In this document: positions 597 through 21,368 of the stretch, piece by piece
Layout of the letters: each line of letters starts with the position of its first letter
Position numbering within the stretch: the stretch's first letter is position 1
Virus record (IMG/VR): IMGVR_UViG_3300042465_004100
Coordinates: 1-21,368 of that record
Reading direction: 5' to 3' (one strand)
DNA: 21,368 nt
DNA from: a virus
Translations under genes and position numbers: made by a program
Notes under the pieces: generated by a model
What the model saw: only the letters and a program-made list of their open reading frames with translations
Database searches by the model: none
Told to the model about the DNA's origin: nothing

Positions 597-1592
597 TTAC
601 CCCTTGTTCACATTCATGCGGTCATATTCCGCGTATTTACGAATCATCTTGTTACGCTCGGTGATGTTGTCCCATCTACCGGCTTCCTTGATGGCGCGGA
701 CTCGCTCAGGTGACAACCGGAACTCGTTTCCACGAGCTGTCGATTGTGATTCACGGCCTGAACTTGTTACCACGGTGCGAGGTCTCCGATTTGACGACTG
801 ATTGTCGTTGCCGCTATTATAACGGTGCGGCAGGTATTTTGTCAATCTATTATCTAATTCTTCCCAGTACTCGGCAGTCTTCGGATCCCAGCCGTCGGCC
901 ACGAGTGCCTCGTCCACCTTAGTGGCGACTTGAGAGTCCATGTCCTTGCCGTTCGGGTCGTACCAATCGTTTCGAGCCATCCAGTCCGAAGCGTGACGCT
1001 TCAGGAGAGGGTCCGGAGCTTGAGGTACAGAATTACGGGAGGGTTCGGAGGCTACGGCACGCTTCTTGAGTGCTTCGAGTGCCTCCACTTGGCGGCGGGC
1101 TTCATACCACGCCTCTTGCGCCTCGACGACGGAAGTGCCGTCGGCCATCTCGGTGGCCTCTTTCACCTTCATCTTGGCGTACTGAAGTCGTAAATTACCG
1201 TCTTCGATCGCCTTGTCCAGTCGAGCAAGGTCCGAACCGGCCGTGCGCTTTTCCAGAACAGCAAGGCGTTCAGCCATGTGGTCATTCTGACGTTTCAGCG
1301 ATGTGATCAGATGGTTCGACTCATTCGCCTTGGCCTTCTGAAGCTTCTTCTTGAGCTGTCGCTCTTCGCGACGAGCCAGTCGAATAGCTTCGCGCTCGGG
1401 ATCGGCGTGAGGTATATTATCGGCGGGATTATCATCATCGTCGCCGTCATCCGCGTCAACGCGACCACCGGTCCGAAGACCTTCGTCGCCATTGTCGGCG
1501 GTATTCGGTGCTTCGCCATCGGGCAAAGACACCGTTGCGGACCCATCGGGTTCTTCCGCAAGTTGCAAATCGAGTTTATCATTAGGGGTCAT
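597..1592 (-). CDS. Probable capsid scaffolding protein
   Basis: A 331-residue, strongly biased protein. Residues 1-65 are very acidic, with a run of Asp near 48-54. Residues 68-180 are rich in Arg, Lys, Glu, Ala and Leu and look like long coiled-coil helices (RREERQLKKKLQKAK). The C-terminal third carries WDPKTAEYWEELDNRLTKYL and ends in a basic segment. Acidic N-terminus, coiled coil and basic C-terminus are typical of phage scaffolding proteins, and the gene lies between portal and capsid genes where scaffolds usually sit. Its ATG overlaps the stop of the GroES-like gene as ATGA (1589-1592). There is no protease domain. Sequence recognition of scaffolds is weak, so the call rests on composition and position. 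A consensus promoter lies inside its 3' third. Confidence 0.75.
   Translation of the reverse strand: MTPNDKLDLQLAEEPDGSATVSLPDGEAPNTADNGDEGLRTGGRVDADDGDDDDNPADNIPHADPEREAIRLARREERQLKKKLQKAKANESNHLITSLKRQNDHMAERLAVLEKRTAGSDLARLDKAIEDGNLRLQYAKMKVKEATEMADGTSVVEAQEAWYEARRQVEALEALKKRAVASEPSRNSVPQAPDPLLKRHASDWMARNDWYDPNGKDMDSQVATKVDEALVADGWDPKTAEYWEELDNRLTKYLPHRYNSGNDNQSSNRRPRTVVTSSGRESQSTARGNEFRLSPERVRAIKEAGRWDNITERNKMIRKYAEYDRMNVNKG
816..845 (-). promoter_or_regulatory. Consensus promoter inside the scaffold gene
   Basis: On the minus strand TTGACA (845-840), an 18-base spacer and TATAAT (821-816) match the sigma70 consensus at all 12 hexamer positions. The spacer ends GCACCGT, close to the GCACCTGTGT of the early promoters, but lacks the extended -10 TG. 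It lies within codons for LTKYLPHRYN of the scaffold-like protein and would start transcription near 809. That would drive the 179-aa gene and the probable capsid gene. Activity is inferred, not shown. Confidence 0.7.
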
Positions 1593-2023
1593 AAGAAGGC
1601 TTTCACTTTCAAGGGGTCACACGTAACTTTCGCAATTACTTCGTGATCATTAAAAATACTAAAAAGGGCTTTTCCTTCGAGTCCGTCGATTGTGAAAGGT
1701 ACTTCCCAACGGTCTCCGCCCCATTTTGGCATGCGAACATAGTCTCCGACGGAAATCCAGTTGCCCTCGGGCCATGGCTCCATCGTGTCGCGCTTCTTGA
1801 AAGCCAGTGGGCCAAGCATAATCACTTTCGCGACTTGCGTGTTCCACTTCTCTGTTTCCTTCGTTTCTTCTGGCAGTATTAAGCCTGATTTCGTCAGTTT
1901 CTCTGCAACGGCTCTCCATTGCACGAGAATACGTCCACCTACAGGCAAAGCACCGGGGTCAACTGCTGGAAATGCTTCCCGCAACGCGGCTTCATTCGAA
2001 GCTTCCGGTTGTGTGTCACTCAT
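1589..2023 (-). CDS. GroES-like co-chaperonin-fold protein in the head gene cluster
   Basis: A 144-residue protein. From about residue 27 it follows the GroES (Cpn10) pattern: PVGGRILVQ (like PLGDRVLVK), SGLILPEE at 47-54 (like GGIVLPD), AKVIMLGP near 65-72, VGDYVRMPKWGGDRW at 92-106, and FSIFNDHEVIAKV near 121-133 (like YLLMREDDILAVI). Residues 1-26 are an acidic extension absent from bacterial GroES. The in-frame ATG at 2023 is preferred over the one at 2038 because GAGGA lies just upstream and it gives an 8-base ATGAGTGA overlap with the preceding stop. Its place between portal and scaffold suggests a role in folding or assembling capsid protein, either as a partner for host GroEL or as a virion part with a Cpn10 fold. 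Confident on the fold, less on function. Confidence 0.75.
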   Translation of the reverse strand: MSDTQPEASNEAALREAFPAVDPGALPVGGRILVQWRAVAEKLTKSGLILPEETKETEKWNTQVAKVIMLGPLAFKKRDTMEPWPEGNWISVGDYVRMPKWGGDRWEVPFTIDGLEGKALFSIFNDHEVIAKVTCDPLKVKAFL

Positions 2024-2201
2024 TATCATCTTCCTCATTTAAAAGGTCGTTTAAAATTACCAGAGCTTCTTCAAGCCCTTGGTGCTGGCCAACTAAGCGT
2101 TGGTAGGCCTCAAAAGTGACGGCATTGCCGTTCACCAATGACTGCGCGATCGCCGATTTGCGGACCTCAATAGCACCGATGAGGTCACTGACGTATCGCA
2201 T
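2016..2201 (-). CDS. Small helical phage protein of unknown function (61 aa)
   Basis: A 61-residue, mostly helical, acidic-tailed protein with the pattern SLVNGNAVTFEAYQRLVGQ, followed by GLEEALVILNDLLNEEDDNE. Small proteins of this pattern are common next to portal and scaffold genes in podovirus-like genomes, but their role is not known to me. Its ATG shares one base with the stop of the preceding 55-aa gene (TAATG), and its TGA overlaps the GroES-like start. It is therefore part of a tightly coupled head-gene transcript. Confidence 0.8.
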   Translation of the reverse strand: MRYVSDLIGAIEVRKSAIAQSLVNGNAVTFEAYQRLVGQHQGLEEALVILNDLLNEEDDNE

Positions 2202-8753: not shown

Positions 8754-8766
8754 CGAATTAAACCAC
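8754..8766. repeat. Direct repeat, nuclease-side copy
   Basis: Second exact copy of CGAATTAAACCAC, 479 bp from the copy at 8275-8287. It spans the stop codon (8760-8758) of the nuclease gene. Confidence 0.8.
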
Positions 8767-9204
8767 GAATTCGCGTAGTGCCACAAGTACGTCCTCGGTG
8801 CTACAGGCTTTTTTGTCGAGTCGCACGCTGTACGAACGCCATTCGGCTTGGGTCCAGTCGCTGGTGGCCAGCTCCGCCGCGTTGAACACGAAGACTTCGT
8901 CGCCGACTTGGACCACGAGCCACGTGTTGCCGCCGTACGTTTTGTGCCGAATCGCCCAGTAGCGTTGGCCGTTGGTCCAGTGCGGGAGCTTGACGGTGGT
9001 GGTGGCCTTGACGGGAAAGGCGTCGAGGCATTTCAGTTCGATCCAGCCCGACAGCGGGCGGTCGTCGGTGGCAGGTGTGGCTCGGACGCTGAAGTACAGG
9101 TCCGGGGTGTCTTTTTTTACCCGGTTCTCGACACGCTCCAGCAGTGCCCGGTGGCCGATTTTGCGGACCAGCCAGTCGTAGAGCTTCTGTTCAGGTAGTC
9201 GCAC
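8758..9204 (-). CDS. PD-(D/E)XK nuclease, VRR-NUC-like
   Basis: A 148-residue predicted endonuclease. The core reads RVENRVKKDTPDLYFSV (about 31-47), then GWIELKC (about 60-66): an upstream Glu, the Pro-Asp of the active site and the Glu-x-Lys pair, in the usual spacing for VRR-NUC or Holliday-junction-resolvase-like domains. LPHWTNGQRYWAI follows, matching the conserved Gln/Arg helix. A beta-rich C-terminus (WLVVQVGDEVFVFNA) completes the fold. The GTG at 9204 is preferred because GGAGG lies immediately upstream; a longer frame reaching 9420 has an unlike, Pro/Arg-rich translation. A likely role is trimming or resolving recombining or packaging DNA. It is the last gene before the repeat-rich intergenic region. 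The exact substrate is unknown. Confidence 0.78.
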   Translation of the reverse strand: MRLPEQKLYDWLVRKIGHRALLERVENRVKKDTPDLYFSVRATPATDDRPLSGWIELKCLDAFPVKATTTVKLPHWTNGQRYWAIRHKTYGGNTWLVVQVGDEVFVFNAAELATSDWTQAEWRSYSVRLDKKACSTEDVLVALREFVV

Positions 9205-9304
9205 GGGACCTCCGCAATTCGTTCCGATACCTCTCCGAGGCCTTCCTTGGGGTCTTCCTTGCGCTGGAGGATATAGTACCGGTATGGTAATAGCTTGGCA
9301 TATC

Positions 9305-9538
9305 TCAAGAGTCTCCGGAGGGCTTCCGTGCACCCCTTGCTCGGATGGCGTGAGCGGCTTCAATCGATGGTTTAAACGGCCACGGTGGTGTCTTTTCGCA
9401 CACCTTTGCACACGCTTCACGCTCGGCCATGGCTACTAGCTCAGCAAAGGCTTCAACAACAGGGTCATGCCAATTGGAATCGAAGTTCGGATTGTTACTG
9501 GCTACTTTCCACATATGTTCGATTTCACTTTTAGTCAT
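9305..9538 (-). CDS. Small phage protein, AEREACAKVCE type
   Basis: A 77-residue protein with the pattern FAELVAMAEREACAKVCEKTP (31-51) and a C-terminal HAIRARG. This pattern is frequent in small proteins of unknown function encoded by phages of Proteobacteria. The start at 9538 gives an ATGA overlap with the preceding stop and has a weak AGGGGG site upstream. Two Cys four residues apart (Cys43 and Cys47) could bind metal, but no second pair is present. About 100 bp without an assigned gene separate it from the nuclease start. Confidence 0.75.
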   Translation of the reverse strand: MTKSEIEHMWKVASNNPNFDSNWHDPVVEAFAELVAMAEREACAKVCEKTPPWPFKPSIEAAHAIRARGARKPSGDS

Positions 9539-14929: not shown

Positions 14930-14959
14930 ATTATAACACAGGTGGGGTAGCCTTGTCAA
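14930..14959 (-). promoter_or_regulatory. Strong early promoter, extended -10
   Basis: TTGACA (14959-14954), an 18-base spacer ending CCACCTGTGT, and TATAAT (14935-14930). A GGGGGGTAT stretch lies just upstream. The stop codon of the DUF6378 gene is inside the -10, and the spacer encodes its final PPVL. Confidence 0.9.
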
Positions 14960-15236
14960 TACCCCCCTTTGGTATTCGTGTCGCCACGATGGTCGCGTAC
15001 CCTGCGATATCCACCCACGAGTCGAGGTGATTAGGGTCGCCATTTAAAATGCGGGAGGCCTTGCACGCGATCATGTCGAGCGATTCGCGCTGGTGGTACT
15101 CCAGCCGCTCCCAGCCCGGGCACTCGCGAAAGAGGTCCTTCAGCGTCTGTGCGATCTCGGCTTGGACCGTGTAATCGCCGTACGACTCGCCGCGCTCCGC
15201 GACCACCCCGTCTATATCAAGCGATGACTGCGGCAT
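14931..15236 (-). CDS. DUF6378 domain protein
   Basis: A 101-residue protein matching the phage DUF6378 pattern: ERGESYGDYTVQAEIAQTLK near the start, ESLDMIACKASRILNGDPNH in the middle, and LDSWVDIAGYATIVA towards the end. The family is common in phage early regions, often near nucleotide-metabolism genes. Its helical, acidic-residue-rich layout is reminiscent of MazG-like folds, but the function is not known. The ATG at 15236 is chosen because AGGAGG lies upstream. It overlaps the 422-aa gene by 20 bases. Its last residues are encoded by the conserved promoter spacer. Confidence 0.85.
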   Translation of the reverse strand: MPQSSLDIDGVVAERGESYGDYTVQAEIAQTLKDLFRECPGWERLEYHQRESLDMIACKASRILNGDPNHLDSWVDIAGYATIVATRIPKGGIDKATPPVL

Positions 15237-16485
15237 GAGCCAGTCCTCCTTTTTTGTATCGGTTCTTATAAGCACCCTGTGGGGCCTCTTTCACCAGACG
15301 CTCAACGATCTCTGCAGGGTCGTACCCCTTGAGCATCCCACGAATGAGGGCCTCGGTCGTGGCTTGTCGTCCGAGTGTCGTAGGGCCGAAAGCGCCCGCT
15401 AGGTCTTGTGGGTTCGCTAGGACTTGCGGCTCGGCGAGATTCTTGAGCAAAACGTCCTCGTAGGGGCGCACTTGGCTTACTCTCAAAGGTGACGCCGTAC
15501 CAGTCCCGGGACCGTAGGCTCCGGCCATCTGCGCTTCACGTGTCATCAGTGTGCCAATGGTCTCATCAGGTGTCATCTTCAAGAAATTCGGCGTGCGCAA
15601 ATCTAGCGCCGCGTCCATCAGTTCGTCAGTCTTCTTATTGGTTACTAAGTTCGGACCACCGAATAGCTTCTTTAGGTAGTAATCTTCCTTGTGACTGGCC
15701 TGAACTGGCATCGAGAAAAGCTGGCCGGACATCCCGGGCGAATACGCCACCTCTTCGACTGGGGCGATGTATCCAAGGTTGCCGTGTCCGAGCGAATGCG
15801 ACGATACGTTACCGAGTCGTCGGACTTGGTTCACATCGGTCAGGTGCGACGCGAAGTTCCCGTGCCCTTGTGCACGCATCATGTCGTACGCGAGCGCGTA
15901 CAGCTCTTTGCCTTTTGCAGGAAGGCTCTTCCACCACGCGGAATCGGGGTCCTTCAAGCCGTACGTTCCGGGCTTTACGTCCATCGCGTAGAGGTCGGTC
16001 ATCGTTGGGTGTGGCATATCCATACCGTATTGTGCCCGCGCCGCGTTGAACTTAGGATCACGCATCGCCGCTTCTGCCATGTAACGCTCCAGCTCAAAAC
16101 CCATCGGAGTCTTGTCTTTGTCGAGCCTAGAGGGTGACCACGAAATGTTCGGATGTATACCTCGTGCGTGCGCCTCGTCTATACTCTTCGGTGCTTTGCT
16201 CTCGGGGTCAAGCCGGATTTTGCCGGTGGAGGGCATATACCCACGCTGTACCGCACCCTCATTCGTCGAGGACATTGTGCCACGAATCGGCTCGCCACTG
16301 GCGGTCTTGCCAAAGATCCCGGCTTGATTGTACTGCTCAAGCACTTCGCTCGGGAGCATGCCAGCTTGTGCTTGCCGCATACCCAGCGGAATGCGCTGTG
16401 CGCCCGGGAGAGCGGCAATGGCGCGGTGGCCCTTGCCTACTCCGCCCATTAGGTCAGCGAACGACAGATTCTTCACTGGTGGCAT
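15217..16485 (-). CDS. Unknown 422-aa phage protein in the early region
   Basis: A 422-residue soluble protein I cannot assign. It starts MPPVKNLSFADLMGGVGKGH. The middle (about 195-240) has MMRAQGHGNFASHLTDVNQV followed by SHSLGHGNLGYIAPVE, a pattern that recalls domains in large phage virion or polyvalent proteins. The C-terminus is basic, YKNRYKKGGLAHAAVIA, with a Gly-Gly turn like those in the 443-aa late protein. GAGG lies 6 bases before the ATG, and the gene overlaps the deacetylase-like gene by 32 bases, so the two are co-expressed. A virion-like protein in an early operon would be unusual; it may be injected or host-directed. No catalytic motif is evident. Confidence 0.75.
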   Translation of the reverse strand: MPPVKNLSFADLMGGVGKGHRAIAALPGAQRIPLGMRQAQAGMLPSEVLEQYNQAGIFGKTASGEPIRGTMSSTNEGAVQRGYMPSTGKIRLDPESKAPKSIDEAHARGIHPNISWSPSRLDKDKTPMGFELERYMAEAAMRDPKFNAARAQYGMDMPHPTMTDLYAMDVKPGTYGLKDPDSAWWKSLPAKGKELYALAYDMMRAQGHGNFASHLTDVNQVRRLGNVSSHSLGHGNLGYIAPVEEVAYSPGMSGQLFSMPVQASHKEDYYLKKLFGGPNLVTNKKTDELMDAALDLRTPNFLKMTPDETIGTLMTREAQMAGAYGPGTGTASPLRVSQVRPYEDVLLKNLAEPQVLANPQDLAGAFGPTTLGRQATTEALIRGMLKGYDPAEIVERLVKEAPQGAYKNRYKKGGLAHAAVIA

Positions 16486-17323
16486 AGTATACCTCGTTGC
16501 TGATCTTCAGCGTTTGCAGGTGGATGTCGATCGTGTGTTGCATCGGCTTCGAGTATCCCCCTGCTAGATTCCAGACTAATGGGACCCCGGCTTCGCGTGC
16601 GGCGGTGAAGATGCCACGATCGCGGGCCGCGAGACCCTCGACAGACAGGTATCCGACTCCGTAGGGATCTTGGTCCCAAGCGTCAGCACCGGCCTGATAC
16701 AGTATTATACCCGCCTTCGAGTTCCGAATCAATCCCTTAGCAAACGACTGCCACATCGCGGCGTTCCACTCGGACTGAATAGGGCGTCCTATATCGGGGC
16801 GGGTGACGTGCGTGACGCGACCCCGGACCATCAGGTGGTCCAGTACGTCCTCGGTCCCGTCGCCGTAGTGTCCATCCCCGTCGATAATCAGCACATTCGT
16901 CGCGCCGTTGCGCAGTGCCTTCATCGCGGTGATCATCAGCCCGTTGAACGTGCAGAACCCGTAGCCGTCCTCGAAGTGAGCGTGGTGGAAGCCCTGAGTC
17001 GCGGAGCACGCCACGGCACCGCGCACGCCGCCTTGCTGGAGCACATGCTTGGCCGCCGCCCAGTGGCCAGCGTTCGAGTAGAGGAGCGAGTTCGTGATCT
17101 CGGGATCGATCGTGTTGAAGCCGTTCGGGGCGACATTCTTCAGGATGCCACGGACGTACTCGCGGTGGTGCGCCTCCTCGAAGTCTACCGCCGTGTACGG
17201 CTCGAAGTTCGATCGCACGTCGCCCTCCAACTGATGTATGAACTCGGGGATCTTCCTTACCGAGATAAAGTCGTAGGAGACCTCTTGGGCCGGGTGGTAG
17301 AATACGGGGGTGCTAGTCGTCAT
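16454..17323 (-). CDS. Histone deacetylase / acetylpolyamine amidohydrolase-like hydrolase
   Basis: A 289-residue member of the zinc-dependent arginase/deacetylase superfamily, which removes acetyl groups from lysines or polyamines. Visible signatures are GFHHAHFEDGYGFCTFNG (111-128), with the catalytic His pair 113/114; IIDGDGHYGDGT (146-157), with ligands Asp150 and His152; AGADAWDQDPYG (211-222), with the third ligand Asp214; and LAGGYS (253-258), with the transition-state Tyr257. All expected metal and catalytic residues are present, so it is probably active. It is shorter than most bacterial HDAC-like enzymes (typically over 300 residues). It is the first full gene after the promoter at 17359-17387, immediately beyond the 2-aminoadenine genes, and is coupled to the 422-aa gene. 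The substrate is unknown. Confidence 0.9.
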   Translation of the reverse strand: MTTSTPVFYHPAQEVSYDFISVRKIPEFIHQLEGDVRSNFEPYTAVDFEEAHHREYVRGILKNVAPNGFNTIDPEITNSLLYSNAGHWAAAKHVLQQGGVRGAVACSATQGFHHAHFEDGYGFCTFNGLMITAMKALRNGATNVLIIDGDGHYGDGTEDVLDHLMVRGRVTHVTRPDIGRPIQSEWNAAMWQSFAKGLIRNSKAGIILYQAGADAWDQDPYGVGYLSVEGLAARDRGIFTAAREAGVPLVWNLAGGYSKPMQHTIDIHLQTLKISNEVYYATSEESVVR

Positions 17324-17334
17324 GGTGGTGTCCT

Positions 17335-17550
17335 CTATGGTTTATTGGTCGAGGATCCATTATACCACACGTGGGACAGATTGTCAAGTCCCTTCTTTTC
17401 GTCCTCAAGCGATTCGGGCATTTCGGCCCTTTCGCGTGTAGTGAAGCGAAATTCACAGTGGTTGCAAGTCCGGCGACGGCGAGTGACGCCATTCGCGTTT
17501 TGATATGTGGTAGTGACTCGGGTCTCCTCGCCGCACTTAATACAATTCAT
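17335..17550 (-). CDS. NrdR-like zinc-ribbon protein without ATP cone (71 aa)
   Basis: A 71-residue protein whose first 40 residues resemble the zinc ribbon of the ribonucleotide-reductase repressor NrdR: MNCIKCGEETRVTTTYQNAN, then TRRRRTCNHCEFRFTTRER. The Cys pairs are 3/6 and 29/32. The ATP-cone domain of NrdR is absent, and a short acidic and then variable tail replaces it. The ATG at 17550 overlaps the DatZ-like stop as ATGA, and GGGGG precedes it. The last 20 codons contain the whole promoter at 17359-17387. Small DNA-binding or decoy regulators of host dNTP synthesis would fit this place, but that is an inference. Confidence 0.78.
   Translation of the reverse strand: MNCIKCGEETRVTTTYQNANGVTRRRRTCNHCEFRFTTRERAEMPESLEDEKKGLDNLSHVWYNGSSTNKP
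17359..17387 (-). promoter_or_regulatory. Strong early promoter inside the zinc-ribbon gene
   Basis: TTGACA (17387-17382), a 17-base spacer containing CCACGTGTGG, and TATAAT (17364-17359) with an extended -10 TGG. It lies within the codons for GLDNLSHVWYNG of the NrdR-like gene and drives the deacetylase-like gene, whose leader carries ATAGAGGACACC. Confidence 0.88.
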
Positions 17551-18110
17551 AACCATCCCCCTGTAATTCCTATATCGTTGCACACGCGGCGAACCGATTC
17601 GCGCACGTTCAATGCTGGGTGCAAACGCTCGGCCTCGTTCACCATGTCGGACAGGATCGCACGAAGGCCATCGAGCACTTGCTTGGCGTGCGCCCCGACT
17701 CCGTTGTCCTGCAGGAAAAAGATCGCCTCGATCTGGTCCGCGAGCTTGACTATGGTTTCTATATCTGTCCCTTTTACCTGACGGTAAGCCGCCATTGTAT
17801 CGCTGTCAACTCGGTCTTCAGCCTTTTCCACGATACCCTTACCCCCTACCGCTTCTAGGTCACGCTTGAACGGTGTTGGCATATCTCCGGTACGCACCTC
17901 GATTACGTCGTGCGCGAGTGCCCACTGCAGGAGCTTGAGCCTGCCCGAATCGTGCAACAAGCCCTTCCACCGCATGGCCGCCGCAAGGGATCCCGCGATC
18001 ACCGCGACTGCGAAAGAATGCTCAGCCAACGTCTGCTCCCGCGACGTCTGCACTATGTGCCACCGCTTGACGTGGCAAGCGCGAAGTTGTTCATATACTG
18101 TTAAACTCAT
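17547..18110 (-). CDS. datZ: DatZ-like HD-domain dATP phosphohydrolase
   Basis: A 187-residue HD-domain enzyme of the YfbR/DatZ type. The metal-binding HD signature is complete: His31 in LAEHSFAVA, His67-Asp68 in ALAHDVIEVRTGDMPTPFK, and Asp125 in VKLADQIEA. The TGD-x-PTP-x-K stretch is shared with YfbR deoxynucleotidases. Near the N-terminus, VKRWHIV has Trp17 and Ile19, the spacing I recall for the base-selecting Trp/Ile pair of cyanophage S-2L DatZ. In 2-aminoadenine phages DatZ strips triphosphate from dATP, removing adenine from the pool. AAAGGAG precedes the ATG, and both ends overlap neighbours as ATGA. Without the purZ and mazZ genes nearby I would call it a YfbR-like nucleotidase; the context favours DatZ. 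Confidence 0.82.
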   Translation of the reverse strand: MSLTVYEQLRACHVKRWHIVQTSREQTLAEHSFAVAVIAGSLAAAMRWKGLLHDSGRLKLLQWALAHDVIEVRTGDMPTPFKRDLEAVGGKGIVEKAEDRVDSDTMAAYRQVKGTDIETIVKLADQIEAIFFLQDNGVGAHAKQVLDGLRAILSDMVNEAERLHPALNVRESVRRVCNDIGITGGWL

Positions 18111-18352
18111 GTGTTTTTCTCCTTTAGTTCGGCTTCAACTGCTCGGTAAATATCTTTGGTACTGTAGGTTCCCATAAGCCGGATTTTGACCGCCCTGTGT
18201 AAAGCATCAAGCTCTTCATCCGTCAGCCCTACCCATGTGCGCTTCGACATTGCGTCCACTGCTTTGTTAACAGTGGTCTGTGTCTGATACATCATGCCAT
18301 CAATAAATCCGCGCTCGTAGTCCGGGCCTTGGTCAAGCCTAGGTTTATCCAC
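18107..18352 (-). CDS. Small phage protein, WVGLTDEE motif (81 aa)
   Basis: An 81-residue helical protein with RTWVGLTDEELDALHRAVKI in the middle and IYRAVEAELKEKNT at the end. WVGLTDEE-type segments are common in small phage proteins of unknown function. The GTG at 18352 is preferred: GGAG lies 7 bases upstream and the start overlaps the preceding stop as GTGGATAA. The stop overlaps the datZ-like ATG, so it is translated together with the nucleotide genes. Confidence 0.78.
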   Translation of the reverse strand: MDKPRLDQGPDYERGFIDGMMYQTQTTVNKAVDAMSKRTWVGLTDEELDALHRAVKIRLMGTYSTKDIYRAVEAELKEKNT

Positions 18353-18983
18353 CGTTTTTCTCCTTAATGTCGTAGAACCAGTCGTCCCCGGCACTCCATT
18401 TGCGTGTGCCGTCGACGGTCCACATACGTTGTGCCGCTTGAAAGTCGGGGAATTTAGTCTCGGCGGGAATTAGGCTCTGATCGTACCACAGGCACCGATT
18501 ATTCGGCTGGCAAGCGAATTGGCCGTTATCCAGCGCAATGAAGTTGAAGCTCTTGTGCTCTTCGGCTTGCTCGGTGAATCCCGTATCTATATCCATGCCG
18601 TCAGCACAGAAGTCCACGGTGAATAGGTATCGGCCGAAATGCCATTCCCGGTCTTTGCCGAGGAACTTCACACCTAGGTTACGCAAGCCGATCTTCTCGA
18701 CGATCGTGAACCGGTAGCCCATGCAGTCCCACAGTTGCAGGACGTCGATCGGCAGATTGCCGGTGTAGTCCGATTGCCAAACGTAGGCGTGGATGGGAAG
18801 CTTGTCGTACAGTGCGCCGTAATTGGGCAAGAGCGACTCGATCCGGAACACTTGACCCCGGAGGGCCTTAATGCTGACCCAAATCGCGGGTTCCAGTTCT
18901 CCATGGCCTTTGTGGTCGTTATACAGGAACTCGCGCCGCACAAAGCACTTCATGGGCGGAAGAGATGCAACGATGTAACTCAT
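18345..18983 (-). CDS. Conserved phage protein of unknown function (212 aa)
   Basis: A 212-residue protein of a conserved phage type: SLPPMKCFVRREFLYNDHKG at the start, then AIWVSIKALRGQVFRIESLL, YGALYDKLPIHAYVW, DVLQLWDCMGYRF, KDREWHFGRYLFTVDF and SFNFIALDNGQFACQPNNRC. It is beta-rich and has no membrane segment. These proteins recur in phage early regions without an assigned function. It lies between the mazZ-like and datZ-like genes, and its start overlaps the preceding stop as ATGA. A role linked to the nucleotide pathway cannot be excluded, but the family is also seen in other contexts. Confidence 0.85.
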   Translation of the reverse strand: MSYIVASLPPMKCFVRREFLYNDHKGHGELEPAIWVSIKALRGQVFRIESLLPNYGALYDKLPIHAYVWQSDYTGNLPIDVLQLWDCMGYRFTIVEKIGLRNLGVKFLGKDREWHFGRYLFTVDFCADGMDIDTGFTEQAEEHKSFNFIALDNGQFACQPNNRCLWYDQSLIPAETKFPDFQAAQRMWTVDGTRKWSAGDDWFYDIKEKNGG

Positions 18984-19195
18984 GACTTCACCGCCTGCAG
19001 ACGCCTGATTTGGTCAGCGATCTGATCGCCTGAAAGCTCGTCGAAGAGCTGGAATTCGTACTTACGAGCGATCCGCTCCAGTGCTCCGTTCCAGATCTTT
19101 TTTACCGCTTCGCGGTTGTCGTCGTCCTCAGACCCCAGCACGTGGCCGAAGGTCTCGTTATACCAGTTGTTGAATTCATCATTTCGGTTCGACAT
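18980..19195 (-). CDS. Small acidic phage protein of unknown function (71 aa)
   Basis: A 71-residue protein starting MSNRNDEFNNWYNETFGHVL, followed by charged helices (EAVKKIWNGALERIARKYEF). No motif is recognised. AGGA lies nine bases before the ATG. It overlaps the end of the mazZ-like gene by 17 bases and the start of the 212-aa gene by 4, so it belongs to the same transcript. Confidence 0.78.
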   Translation of the reverse strand: MSNRNDEFNNWYNETFGHVLGSEDDDNREAVKKIWNGALERIARKYEFQLFDELSGDQIADQIRRLQAVKS

Positions 19196-19682
19196 GGCGC
19201 ATGATCCTCGTGTTGACGTCCACTTCCCATTCGCGTCCCTCGTTGATATCCATCTTGTCCTCTACCGCCTTGTGTACGTCTATACCGTTTTTATGCGCAA
19301 CGTCCAGCAGTAGGATCATAATGTCACCCATTTCGAGAGCGGCTTTTGGGTTACGAGCGTACTCGCCCACCTCCTCGTAGAGCTTGAGTAGGATGTCCGC
19401 AGTGGTACGCGCCGGAAAACGCGAGTCTGCCCACTTGGTAATTCTATCCTGAAGTTGTCGGATATCTGCTCCACCACGCTTCTTATACGCGTTGACGGCA
19501 CGGACCGCAAGGTCGGCATTTTTATCGCAATTGGCCATAACGCCACGCAAGTGGTGACGCACCTCGAAAGACGCGACGGTTGCGCCGTGCGCATCGACGA
19601 CTTCTGCCGCCCGTTCGGGGTGAATCGCCCAAGGGGTCTCATTAACTTCATCCGTGTGTACTGTTGATTCTACCTGTAGCAT
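19179..19682 (-). CDS. mazZ: MazZ-like MazG-type (d)GTP pyrophosphatase with N-terminal extension
   Basis: A 167-residue protein. Residues about 75-155 form a MazG-like all-alpha NTP pyrophosphatase with the complete metal signature EExxE (Glu103, Glu104, Glu107 in LYEEVGEYA) and ExxD (Glu117, Asp120 in LEMGDIMILLLD), then KMDINEGREWE. In 2-aminoadenine phages MazZ turns dGTP into dGMP, the substrate of PurZ. Residues 15-70 (PWAIHPERAAEVVDAHGATV, continuing to AVRAVNAYKKRG) resemble a small domain common in other phage proteins, fused here to MazG. GGAG lies 5 bases before the ATG at 19682. The gene overlaps the purZ-like gene by 35 bases, strong coupling. MazG assignment is secure; the Z-pathway role follows from the neighbours. 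Confidence 0.85.
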   Translation of the reverse strand: MLQVESTVHTDEVNETPWAIHPERAAEVVDAHGATVASFEVRHHLRGVMANCDKNADLAVRAVNAYKKRGGADIRQLQDRITKWADSRFPARTTADILLKLYEEVGEYARNPKAALEMGDIMILLLDVAHKNGIDVHKAVEDKMDINEGREWEVDVNTRIMRHVEPK

Positions 19683-20775
19683 ATGCTCTCCAAAGTTCAA
19701 GAATTCGTGCCATCCGTGCCTCGGGACCGTATTGTGGCATCGAGTACACATCCTTATAAGCGGGTCCAAGTCCAATCCAGCGCACCACTGTGTCTTTACT
19801 GCGCTCAATCGACTCCACGATATCCCGCACCTCGTCCTCGGACCTGCAATAATTAACGAAGTTCAGGAAGATCTCCCGAGCACCATTGTACTCGATCGCC
19901 TCTTCGATCTGCTTGCGGCTAAACGTGAAAATGCGACGCGGGAGCTTGGTCACCGTAGTCAGCTCGGTCTTCTGTCCGATCTCCTCAAACGTGATTTCCA
20001 GCTGGTCACCGTAGCAAGGTCCAGAGTAGCCGACTTGTGTCCCGTGGGTGTCGAATCGATTGGCCACGCGGATCGGATAAGTGCGGCATGTGCCGATCAC
20101 GTTCATCATCAGATCGCCGAACACCTCGGGGAGCAGGTCGTGCGGAATGCCGCAATCGGCGAGGATTTGCCATAGGCTCACATCACGCGAAGTGGTGTAG
20201 GGGTAAAAGCCGTGGTACATCGACAACCCGTAGCCCTGTGCGCCTTCCACCAGCACACTCTTGGCGTCACGCAGTGCGGCGCGGTAAGTGGCCACTGTGA
20301 CTACGTATTTTGCAAGCTCCTCGCAGTCGGCGGCGATGTTTAGATCGTCCGGATTGCGTCGGATGCGTTGAATCATCGCGGCACCCACACCCTTTTTGGT
20401 CGAGCCGATCTTGGTCATCGGTCCCGCTTCTTCCTCAATGTGACGCTCGGTCACTACAGCGGCGTGTGGGTGAATCAGAATCTCTACCTTTCCGAGCAAG
20501 TCCGAGCACGCGGCGATCTCTGCCAGCAGTTGCCGGGGGTTGATCAGCGAGCCGGGGCCGAGGAGCACTCGACGGAGCTTGGGCGACACTATGCCATTGG
20601 CAAGGTGCGTGTGAATGAACTTGCGTCCATCTTTGCTGATGTACGTGTGCCCCGCATTGGGTGCCCACGCGGTGATCACCGTATCGGGTGCTTCGTCCTC
20701 TGCGATCTTACCTACGATCAGCCCCTTGCCGGTGCTCCCGTATTGCAGATCGACTACGATTCTAATCTTTTCCAT
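19648..20775 (-). CDS. purZ: PurZ, phage succino-2-aminodeoxyadenylate synthase (PurA homologue)
   Basis: A 375-residue enzyme of the adenylosuccinate synthetase family. The P-loop region reads VVDLQYGSTGKGLIVG, with Ser14 where PurA has the catalytic Asp of GDEGKG; this Asp-to-Ser change is the hallmark of phage PurZ. NAGHT with His43, IGSTKKGVGAA (like PurA IGTTGRGIG), EGAQGYGLSMYHG and YPYTTSRDVS are also present. PurZ condenses aspartate with dGMP; host PurB then gives dZMP. The protein is shorter than bacterial PurA (about 430), as expected for phage forms. ATG 20775 starts 5 bases after the polymerase stop; upstream extension to 20856 lies inside that gene. It is placed with dpoZ, mazZ and datZ homologues, the complete pathway set. 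Confidence 0.93.
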   Translation of the reverse strand: MEKIRIVVDLQYGSTGKGLIVGKIAEDEAPDTVITAWAPNAGHTYISKDGRKFIHTHLANGIVSPKLRRVLLGPGSLINPRQLLAEIAACSDLLGKVEILIHPHAAVVTERHIEEEAGPMTKIGSTKKGVGAAMIQRIRRNPDDLNIAADCEELAKYVVTVATYRAALRDAKSVLVEGAQGYGLSMYHGFYPYTTSRDVSLWQILADCGIPHDLLPEVFGDLMMNVIGTCRTYPIRVANRFDTHGTQVGYSGPCYGDQLEITFEEIGQKTELTTVTKLPRRIFTFSRKQIEEAIEYNGAREIFLNFVNYCRSEDEVRDIVESIERSKDTVVRWIGLGPAYKDVYSMPQYGPEARMARILELWRAYATGRINSTHG

Positions 20776-20780
20776 TACCT

Positions 20781-21368
20781 CTATCCTTTCGCTTCGTACC
20801 AGTCCTCGCCTATACCCCAGTCGCACGTGATTGGAACACGCAGATGAATGGGACATTCTACACCATCAAAGGTCGTGTAGATTCGTGCTACCTCTTTCGC
20901 TTTATCGAGTGAGTCATTATCGAGCGATATGCCCACCTCGTCGTGCACCGTCAGCAGTAGTCGCCCACAGCCTTCGGCGGTTAAATATTCGTGAAGCTCG
21001 ATGAGCTTTTGCTTCATGCAGTCCGCGCTGGTGGCTTGATAGATCAGCCCTGACGCCTTGTGCACGAATTGACCGCCCGGGAACCGAAGCCGACGGCCCA
21101 TCACTGAATGCACCGAGCCGCGCTCCTTGGCGATGTTACTTGCCTTTTGCGCGGTGTTGCGCATTCCGGGGTTCGCGGCGTGGTACTTCTCGAACAGTGC
21201 CATCGCCTCGGGTCCGGCCTTTAGGAACACGTTGCCGTTGGGTCCCACCTCCTCGGTGTAGGGTAGCCCGCACTCCTGCGCTAGCCGCCCGGACCCCATG
21301 TTGAACGCCAGCCCGAGGTTAATCGCTTTTGAAGACGGGCCACCAGCGTACTGGGCGTTTCGGGGAAT
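20781..21368 (-). CDS. Family A DNA polymerase, C-terminal part (probable DpoZ)
   Basis: The last 195 residues of a PolA-type polymerase; the gene continues beyond the window edge. The O-helix is visible at the edge as SSKAINLGLAFNMGSGRLAQ: the Lys, Gly and aromatic positions match E. coli Pol I KAINFGLIYG, with Leu at the Phe762 position and Phe at the Tyr766 position. Motif C is RLLLTVHDEVGIS, with the catalytic His-Asp-Glu. MGRRLRFPGGQFVHKASGLI and ATSADCMKQKLIEL match the palm. It lies directly before purZ, as the DpoZ polymerase does in several 2-aminoadenine phages, so it probably replicates the phage genome with dZTP. The exonuclease domain cannot be judged here. Confidence 0.9.
   Translation of the reverse strand: MPRNAQYAGGPSSKAINLGLAFNMGSGRLAQECGLPYTEEVGPNGNVFLKAGPEAMALFEKYHAANPGMRNTAQKASNIAKERGSVHSVMGRRLRFPGGQFVHKASGLIYQATSADCMKQKLIELHEYLTAEGCGRLLLTVHDEVGISLDNDSLDKAKEVARIYTTFDGVECPIHLRVPITCDWGIGEDWYEAKG

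Follow-up and report, generated by a model that had tools for sequence, protein, structure and literature searches.

The IMG/VR virus record IMGVR_UViG_3300042465_004100, a linear sequence of 21,368 bp that is probably a fragment and was analyzed over its whole length (here called the window), carries a set of genes for the replacement of adenine by 2-aminoadenine (Z). Our reading, to which we assign a probability of roughly 0.93, is that this region is a complete Z-cluster of the PurZ type (not PurZ0) in an uncultivated SU10-type podovirus, that it acts as proposed below, and that it was gained by block replacement. Its gene content strongly suggests that 2-aminoadenine would replace adenine in the virion DNA. 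The Z pathway is already known, and seven groups of Z phages have been described (PMC12884076); the novelty lies with the carrier, uncultivated SU10-type podoviruses (genomes of ~57 kb) whose PurZ and DpoZ form a clade of their own.

A first-pass annotation of the window had placed four Z genes (polymerase, purZ, mazZ and datZ) between positions 17547 and 21368. All four were found there on the minus strand, in the order (from the right edge) C-terminal part of dpoZ, purZ, mazZ, small open reading frames (ORFs), datZ (Table 1). The polymerase gene is indeed part of the set, but the contig end truncates it, leaving the last 195 amino acids (aa). For the complete gene we used the relative IMGVR_UViG_3300044614_000423 (56,225 bp; G001), which matches the greater part of the window at 93-97% nucleotide identity. 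A megablast search revealed no near-identical named phage.

The four Z enzymes

Structures have been solved for all four enzymes, and the best solved relatives of the lineage proteins are S-2L PurZ, MazZ and DatZ and phiVC8 DpoZ. The S-2L and phiVC8 proteins served as references in the alignments used for residue tests, with residue lists taken from published work (PMC8342488, PMC8065100, PMC8599892), and the published specificity residues are nearly all kept across the four enzymes. E-values of 1e-104 (PurZ) and 1e-31 (DatZ) exclude chance matches.

The polymerase fragment covers motif B (L455/F459), motif 6 (G548) and the HD of motif C (phiVC8 numbering); it scored 213 bits against NCBIfam NF038380 (phage_DpoZ_1) and is 99% identical to its relatives over 195 columns. 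The full-length G001 homologue (611 aa) reached 772 bits against a cut-off of 500, and phiVC8 DpoZ was by far its best match in the solved-structure library (E 4e-135). L455, F459 and G548 are kept, and the control proteins have tyrosine at position 459; these controls were other non-Z PolA proteins, with JL001, a known non-Z relative of DpoZ, outside the collection. The distant 960-aa polymerase of Caulobacter phage KcrB shows Phe at 459, in a poorly aligned region. Among the insertions typical of phiVC8-like DpoZ (helix O and fingers tip), numbers 2 and 3 are present in the lineage polymerase. In the DpoZ tree the lineage forms one clade (100/100), placed within the DpoZ group of phiVC8 and SH-Ab 15497 (97/98) and apart from non-Z PolA. 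The first-pass annotation had named a PolA grouping outside all DpoZ sequences as a result that would refute its reading; the tree shows the opposite.

The window PurZ carries MEKIRIVVDLQYGSTGKG, in which Ser14 replaces the Asp of PurA (Asp13), as the first-pass annotation had noted. The protein scored 348 bits against NF038379, the curated PurZ family of NCBIfam (cut-off 300), and its best solved relative was S-2L PurZ (7odx; E 5e-84). The S-2L PurZ residues G22, S23, N49-T53, T132, Q190, R240, V241 and T273-T276 are kept. The phylogenetic tree placed the lineage as one clade (97/99) inside PurZ, separate from PurZ0 and PurA. In two other IMG/VR contigs (L236 and L237) the encoded PurZ shares 82-84% identity with the protein of cyanophage S-2L, which is otherwise a lone branch.

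The gene between purZ and datZ had been called MazZ-like on the basis of acidic motifs, and the metal ligands of S-2L MazZ (E35, E38, E50 and D53) were all found, together with the guanine contacts I56 and D60 and the remainder of the MazZ-1 set (K76, N80, R83, W85 and H95; S-2L numbering). Residues 72-164 align with S-2L MazZ (7ody; E 2e-11), and identity is 43% to the SH-Ab 15497 protein and 36% to S-2L MazZ. All matches were to MazZ-1/DUF550 proteins, with no similarity to the MazZ-2 of phiVC8/ZP6, whose alignment rows lack the MazZ-1 contacts. Residues 1-65 form a lineage-specific N-terminal extension that is not alignable to other MazZ-1 proteins. N-terminal fusions are known for MazZ-1 (PMC8342488).

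DatZ showed both the HD signature and the TGDMPTP motif noted previously. All fifteen residues checked are kept, including R19, W20, I22, H34, H66, D67, E70, P79, K81, K116 and D119, among which are the HD metal ligands and the phosphate contacts R19/K81/K116; the match to S-2L DatZ (6zpa) gave an E-value of 4e-18. In a tblastn search of 50,697 phage records all of the matches listed came from Z-group phages, and datZ was present in each of the 11 large relatives searched.

The ratio of nonsynonymous to synonymous substitution rates (dN/dS) between the window and its relatives was low for PurZ (0.01-0.23), the polymerase fragment (0.03-0.11) and MazZ (0.04-0.13), in each case where dS was unsaturated, and for DatZ (0.02-0.12, apart from 0.43 in the comparison with G012, the most distant of the genomes), which indicates that the Z genes are functional and under purifying selection.

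The carrier lineage and its sisters

Three relatives (G002, G009 and G010), with genomes of ~56-57 kb, carry direct repeats of 87-127 bp at their termini. The window had been credited with an SU10-type portal. Its portal matches phrog_1216 (portal) and, by sequence, no portal in the PDB and no solved SU10 portal; the SU10 assignment is based on the adaptor encoded by G001 (Pfam SU10_adaptor, 96 bits against a threshold of 27; solved adaptor 7z47, E 4e-5). Entry 7z47 is the adaptor of phage SU10. The suggestion that this is a Z-phage lineage not commonly described held up, since neither capsid nor portal has a match among named Z phages; 26 relatives occur in IMG/VR. No named phage represents this podovirus lineage.

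The nearest named relatives by capsid and portal are MW202545 (Manatee Spring) and the Caulobacter phages RW, KcrB, RLK and GB2A, which have head, packaging and tail genes in common with the lineage. Identity to the Caulobacter phages and MW202545, respectively, is 79% and 88% for the major capsid protein and 46% and 59% for the portal. Unlike the lineage, KcrB and MW202545 have no purZ, mazZ, datZ or DpoZ gene detectable by tblastn. Other cultivated capsid relatives are pelagiphages and roseophages.

Among named Z phages, the siphophages SH-Ab 15497, PMBT28 and K21lambda1 share with the lineage the gene order primase, SNF2 helicase, UvrD helicase, polymerase, PurZ, MazZ-1, DatZ, at identities of 48-50% (PurZ), 46-49% (DpoZ) and 43-44% (MazZ). 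They differ from it in that (i) ssb follows the polymerase gene, whereas in the window lineage it precedes it, (ii) their MazZ proteins are fusions of 290-385 aa, compared with 167 aa including its own short extension in the window, (iii) small ORFs part mazZ from datZ in the window, and (iv) the head and tail genes are unrelated. Cyanophage S-2L (datZ-mazZ-purZ), a siphovirus of cyanobacteria, has the same three enzymes with conserved residues but lacks DpoZ and uses a PrimPol (PMC8065100). Enhodamvirus phiVC8 and Mareflavirus ZP6 encode PurZ, DatZ and DpoZ, and ZP6 is also short-tailed (PMC8515928); however, they have MazZ of type 2, genomes of 38-40 kb, another capsid, portal and tail, and PurZ/DpoZ proteins of another clade. 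The Wayne-like PurZ0 phages of Actinobacteria likewise make Z-DNA through a PurZ homologue and DpoZ, but these belong to another PurZ0 and DpoZ clade, and DutZ/DmtZ replace DatZ/MazZ (PMC12884076).

A capsid search of IMG/VR retrieved at least 596 relatives. Among 19 contigs longer than 44 kb with an 89-98% identical capsid protein, purZ and dpoZ were both present in five and both absent from the other 14. The major capsid protein of the sisters without Z genes (non-Z sisters) is 87-93% identical. When complete genomes were compared gene by gene, the head, packaging and tail genes proved to be common to both types (major capsid protein 89-93%, three non-Z genomes), and a stretch of ~25 kb with the early and replication genes (~20.6-46.5 kb of G001) had essentially no counterpart in the non-Z sisters. 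No family A or B polymerase was found with Pfam in the 14 non-Z sisters (other types of polymerase not being excluded), which suggests that these phages probably use the host replicase. Ten of the 14 encode a DUF1376 protein; in G014, the one examined, it adjoins a DnaB-like helicase. The Z trait appears to have been acquired with one complete block of Z-type replisome genes.

In the portal tree a single branch (99/99) splits 13 Z from 15 non-Z genomes, i.e. there is one change of state, and with KcrB as the root the Z clade has non-Z clades on either side (93/93). Gain rather than loss is likely on this topology but, because the outgroup branch is long, not proven. The most likely history is a single gain by whole-half replacement, in which a capsid lineage akin to non-Z Caulobacter phages would have acquired Z once by swapping its early/replication half (~25 kb) for a Z replisome block. 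The reverse course, in which Z was ancestral in the capsid lineage and the non-Z sisters lost the block to a host-dependent replication module, finds support in the rooting of the tree, which depends on a single long outgroup branch (KcrB, 1.77). We regard it as quite unlikely, given the flanking non-Z clades and a set of closest cultivated relatives by capsid (Caulobacter phages, pelagiphages and roseophages) that includes no known Z phage.

Neighboring genes, promoters and palindromes

Between mazZ and datZ there are ~1.1 kb with two or three other ORFs. The 71-aa ORF is kept in all compared Z genomes of the lineage and has no relative among named phages; it could be an accessory gene of the Z operon specific to this lineage. 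The ORF matching phrog_3704 is placed outside the core set, since among the genomes compared only the window and G001 carry it; the "ferredoxin" label of this phrog was rejected, as no Pfam match was obtained. The protein of the histone-deacetylase superfamily is conserved in most of the lineage and missing in G010, and among named phages its relatives are confined to Rhodococcus phage E3 and a number of very large phages. Relatives of the phrog_2165 and DUF6378 proteins are encoded at or near datZ in other Z phages, and lie elsewhere in the early region here.

Table 1. Genes and promoters located in the window (position 1 is its first base)
Feature	Position	Strand	Basis or remarks
GroES-like co-chaperonin	1589-2038	-	part of the head gene module; conserved throughout the capsid lineage, KcrB included
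phrog_2165 relative (annotated DNA helicase or nuclease)	8758-9420	-	
Further perfect sigma70 promoters	starts 14959, 14157, 13139, 12309, 11463, 10321	-	mostly with extended -10 TGn
DUF6378 protein	14931-15275	-	
Histone-deacetylase/acetylpolyamine-amidohydrolase superfamily protein	16454-17323	-	His-His, Asp-x-His and Tyr motifs visible
Small zinc-ribbon protein (NrdR-like N-terminal domain)	17335-17550	-	PF22811, 34 bits (threshold 27); directly after datZ; conserved in lineage
Perfect extended -10 sigma70-type promoter, TTGACA-N17-TATAAT	17359-17387	-	starts next unit downstream of Z operon
datZ, 187 aa, predicted dATP triphosphohydrolase	17547-18110	-	PF12917 YfbR-like; phrog_7076, E 6e-31; 6zpa
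95-aa ORF	18107-18394		
ORF matching phrog_3704	18345-18983	-	
71-aa ORF	18980-19195	-	between mazZ and datZ; 44-90% identity in G002, G005, G009, G010, G012
mazZ (MazZ-1/DUF550 type), 167 aa, predicted (d)GTP pyrophosphohydrolase	19179-19682 (start ATG 19682)	-	PF04447; 7ody; residues
purZ, 375 aa, predicted N6-succino-2-amino-2'-deoxyadenylate synthetase	19648-20775	-	NF038379; S-2L PurZ match; residues; tree
dpoZ, C-terminal 195 aa of family A DNA polymerase	20781-21368	-	cut by contig end; NF038380; residues; insertions; tree

The first-pass annotation assigned the four genes to one transcript. G001 has one perfect extended promoter at 31301, in the interval from the UvrD helicase gene to ssb; the promoter that follows, at 37015 (window 17387), comes after datZ. 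A single unit ssb-dpoZ-purZ-mazZ-...-datZ fits these flanking promoters and is plausible from their positions.

Defined as TTGACA-N16-18-TATAAT, perfect sites number 2-12 per genome in nine Z genomes of the lineage (approximately zero in shuffled sequences) and are absent from 14 non-Z sisters (12 IMG/VR contigs, MW202545 and KcrB). Outside the lineage, at least one perfect site was found in 9/13 named Z phages and in 9/21 Z contigs (a set that leaves out three lineage members), with none in S-2L, Bm1 and the actinobacterial PurZ0 phages. The controls with a site were 0/7 other named non-Z phages, 0/14 sisters and 2/50 non-Z PolA contigs, giving 18/34 Z versus 2/71 non-Z (Fisher p ~4e-9, for rows that are not independent). 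The extended TGn was present at 41 of the 44 Z sites outside the lineage and at neither of the two control sites.

Sigma factors are reportedly sensitive to A-to-Z substitution, and the perfect promoters may for this reason be a genomic footprint of Z-DNA. Tentatively, and with rather less than even confidence, we suggest that the need for sigma70 to start on Z-containing -35 and -10 hexamers might make Z phages keep perfect TTGACA/TATAAT together with TGn, and that whole-replicon exchange might have brought both the Z block and its promoters into the SU10-type lineage. Inheritance of the promoters with the module, or effects of the host taxon, are live alternative explanations of the enrichment.

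Avoidance of six-base palindromes that contain A/T is weaker in the Z genomes (mean observed/expected ratio 0.80) than in the non-Z sisters (0.64), whereas GC-only palindromes show no difference (0.32 Z, 0.39 non-Z); in named Z phages the A/T ratio is 0.77-0.92. This pattern, a single evolutionary contrast, fits protection of A-containing restriction sites. Avoidance of GATC or GANTC, considered as a sign of host methylation or of Z, gave no clear split between Z and non-Z genomes. GANTC, the CcrM target, is strongly avoided in KcrB (L030, L031; 59 found against 257 expected), unlike in the Z lineage.

Proposed pathway and alternative explanations

We infer the enzymatic activities, the host steps and the extent of substitution from the features described above. 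MazZ would convert dGTP to dGMP, which PurZ would condense with aspartate to N6-succino-2-amino-2'-deoxyadenylate; host PurB and host kinases would then turn this product into dZTP. DatZ would destroy dATP, and DpoZ would favor dZTP over dATP, so that Z would stand in place of A in the phage genome.

Several observations weigh against this reading or limit it. Only one third of the polymerase (the C-terminal part) lies in the window, and DpoZ insertion 1 is partly variable. The equivalent of S-2L PurZ Q308 is Asn here, yet Asn is found at this position in nearly all PurZ proteins listed. No PurZ relative was detected in 84,980 prokaryote genomes, so that PurZ provides no link to a host. Finally, as S-2L and the Wayne-like DpoZ illustrate, the completeness of substitution cannot be read from gene content by itself.

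This last point bears on the possibility that dZTP is made and virion DNA nevertheless has just part of its A replaced by Z, owing to a modest preference of DpoZ or a weak DatZ in the host. The specificity of DpoZ cannot be traced to one determinant, and backtracking is its proposed basis (PMC8599892), which leaves room for such an outcome; we nonetheless consider it unlikely, as the full set with a dATPase and a polymerase of the DpoZ clade is that of the complete-replacement phages (PMC12884076), and the weaker avoidance of A/T but not GC-only palindromes also argues against it. Genes for PurA-like, MazG-like and HD hydrolase proteins are common in phages, and there are Mycobacterium phages with PurA-like genes, so the purA-like gene could in principle encode an ordinary adenylosuccinate synthetase, with neighbors that serve nucleotide recycling and no Z in the DNA. 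Ser14 in place of Asp, the PurZ-specific T273-T276, the position inside PurZ in the tree, the signature residues of the adjoining DpoZ and the perfect co-occurrence of purZ and dpoZ in genomes with the same capsid make this extremely improbable.

A complete Z-cluster gained by block replacement remains our preferred reading, and it suggests that Z-DNA was gained together with an autonomous replisome rather than through purZ alone. Near-identical capsids with and without Z constitute a matched natural experiment. The Z/non-Z pair opens the costs and benefits of Z to testing: (i) escape from restriction, (ii) how stiffer DNA packs into the same capsid, and (iii) transcription by host sigma factors from Z-containing promoters.

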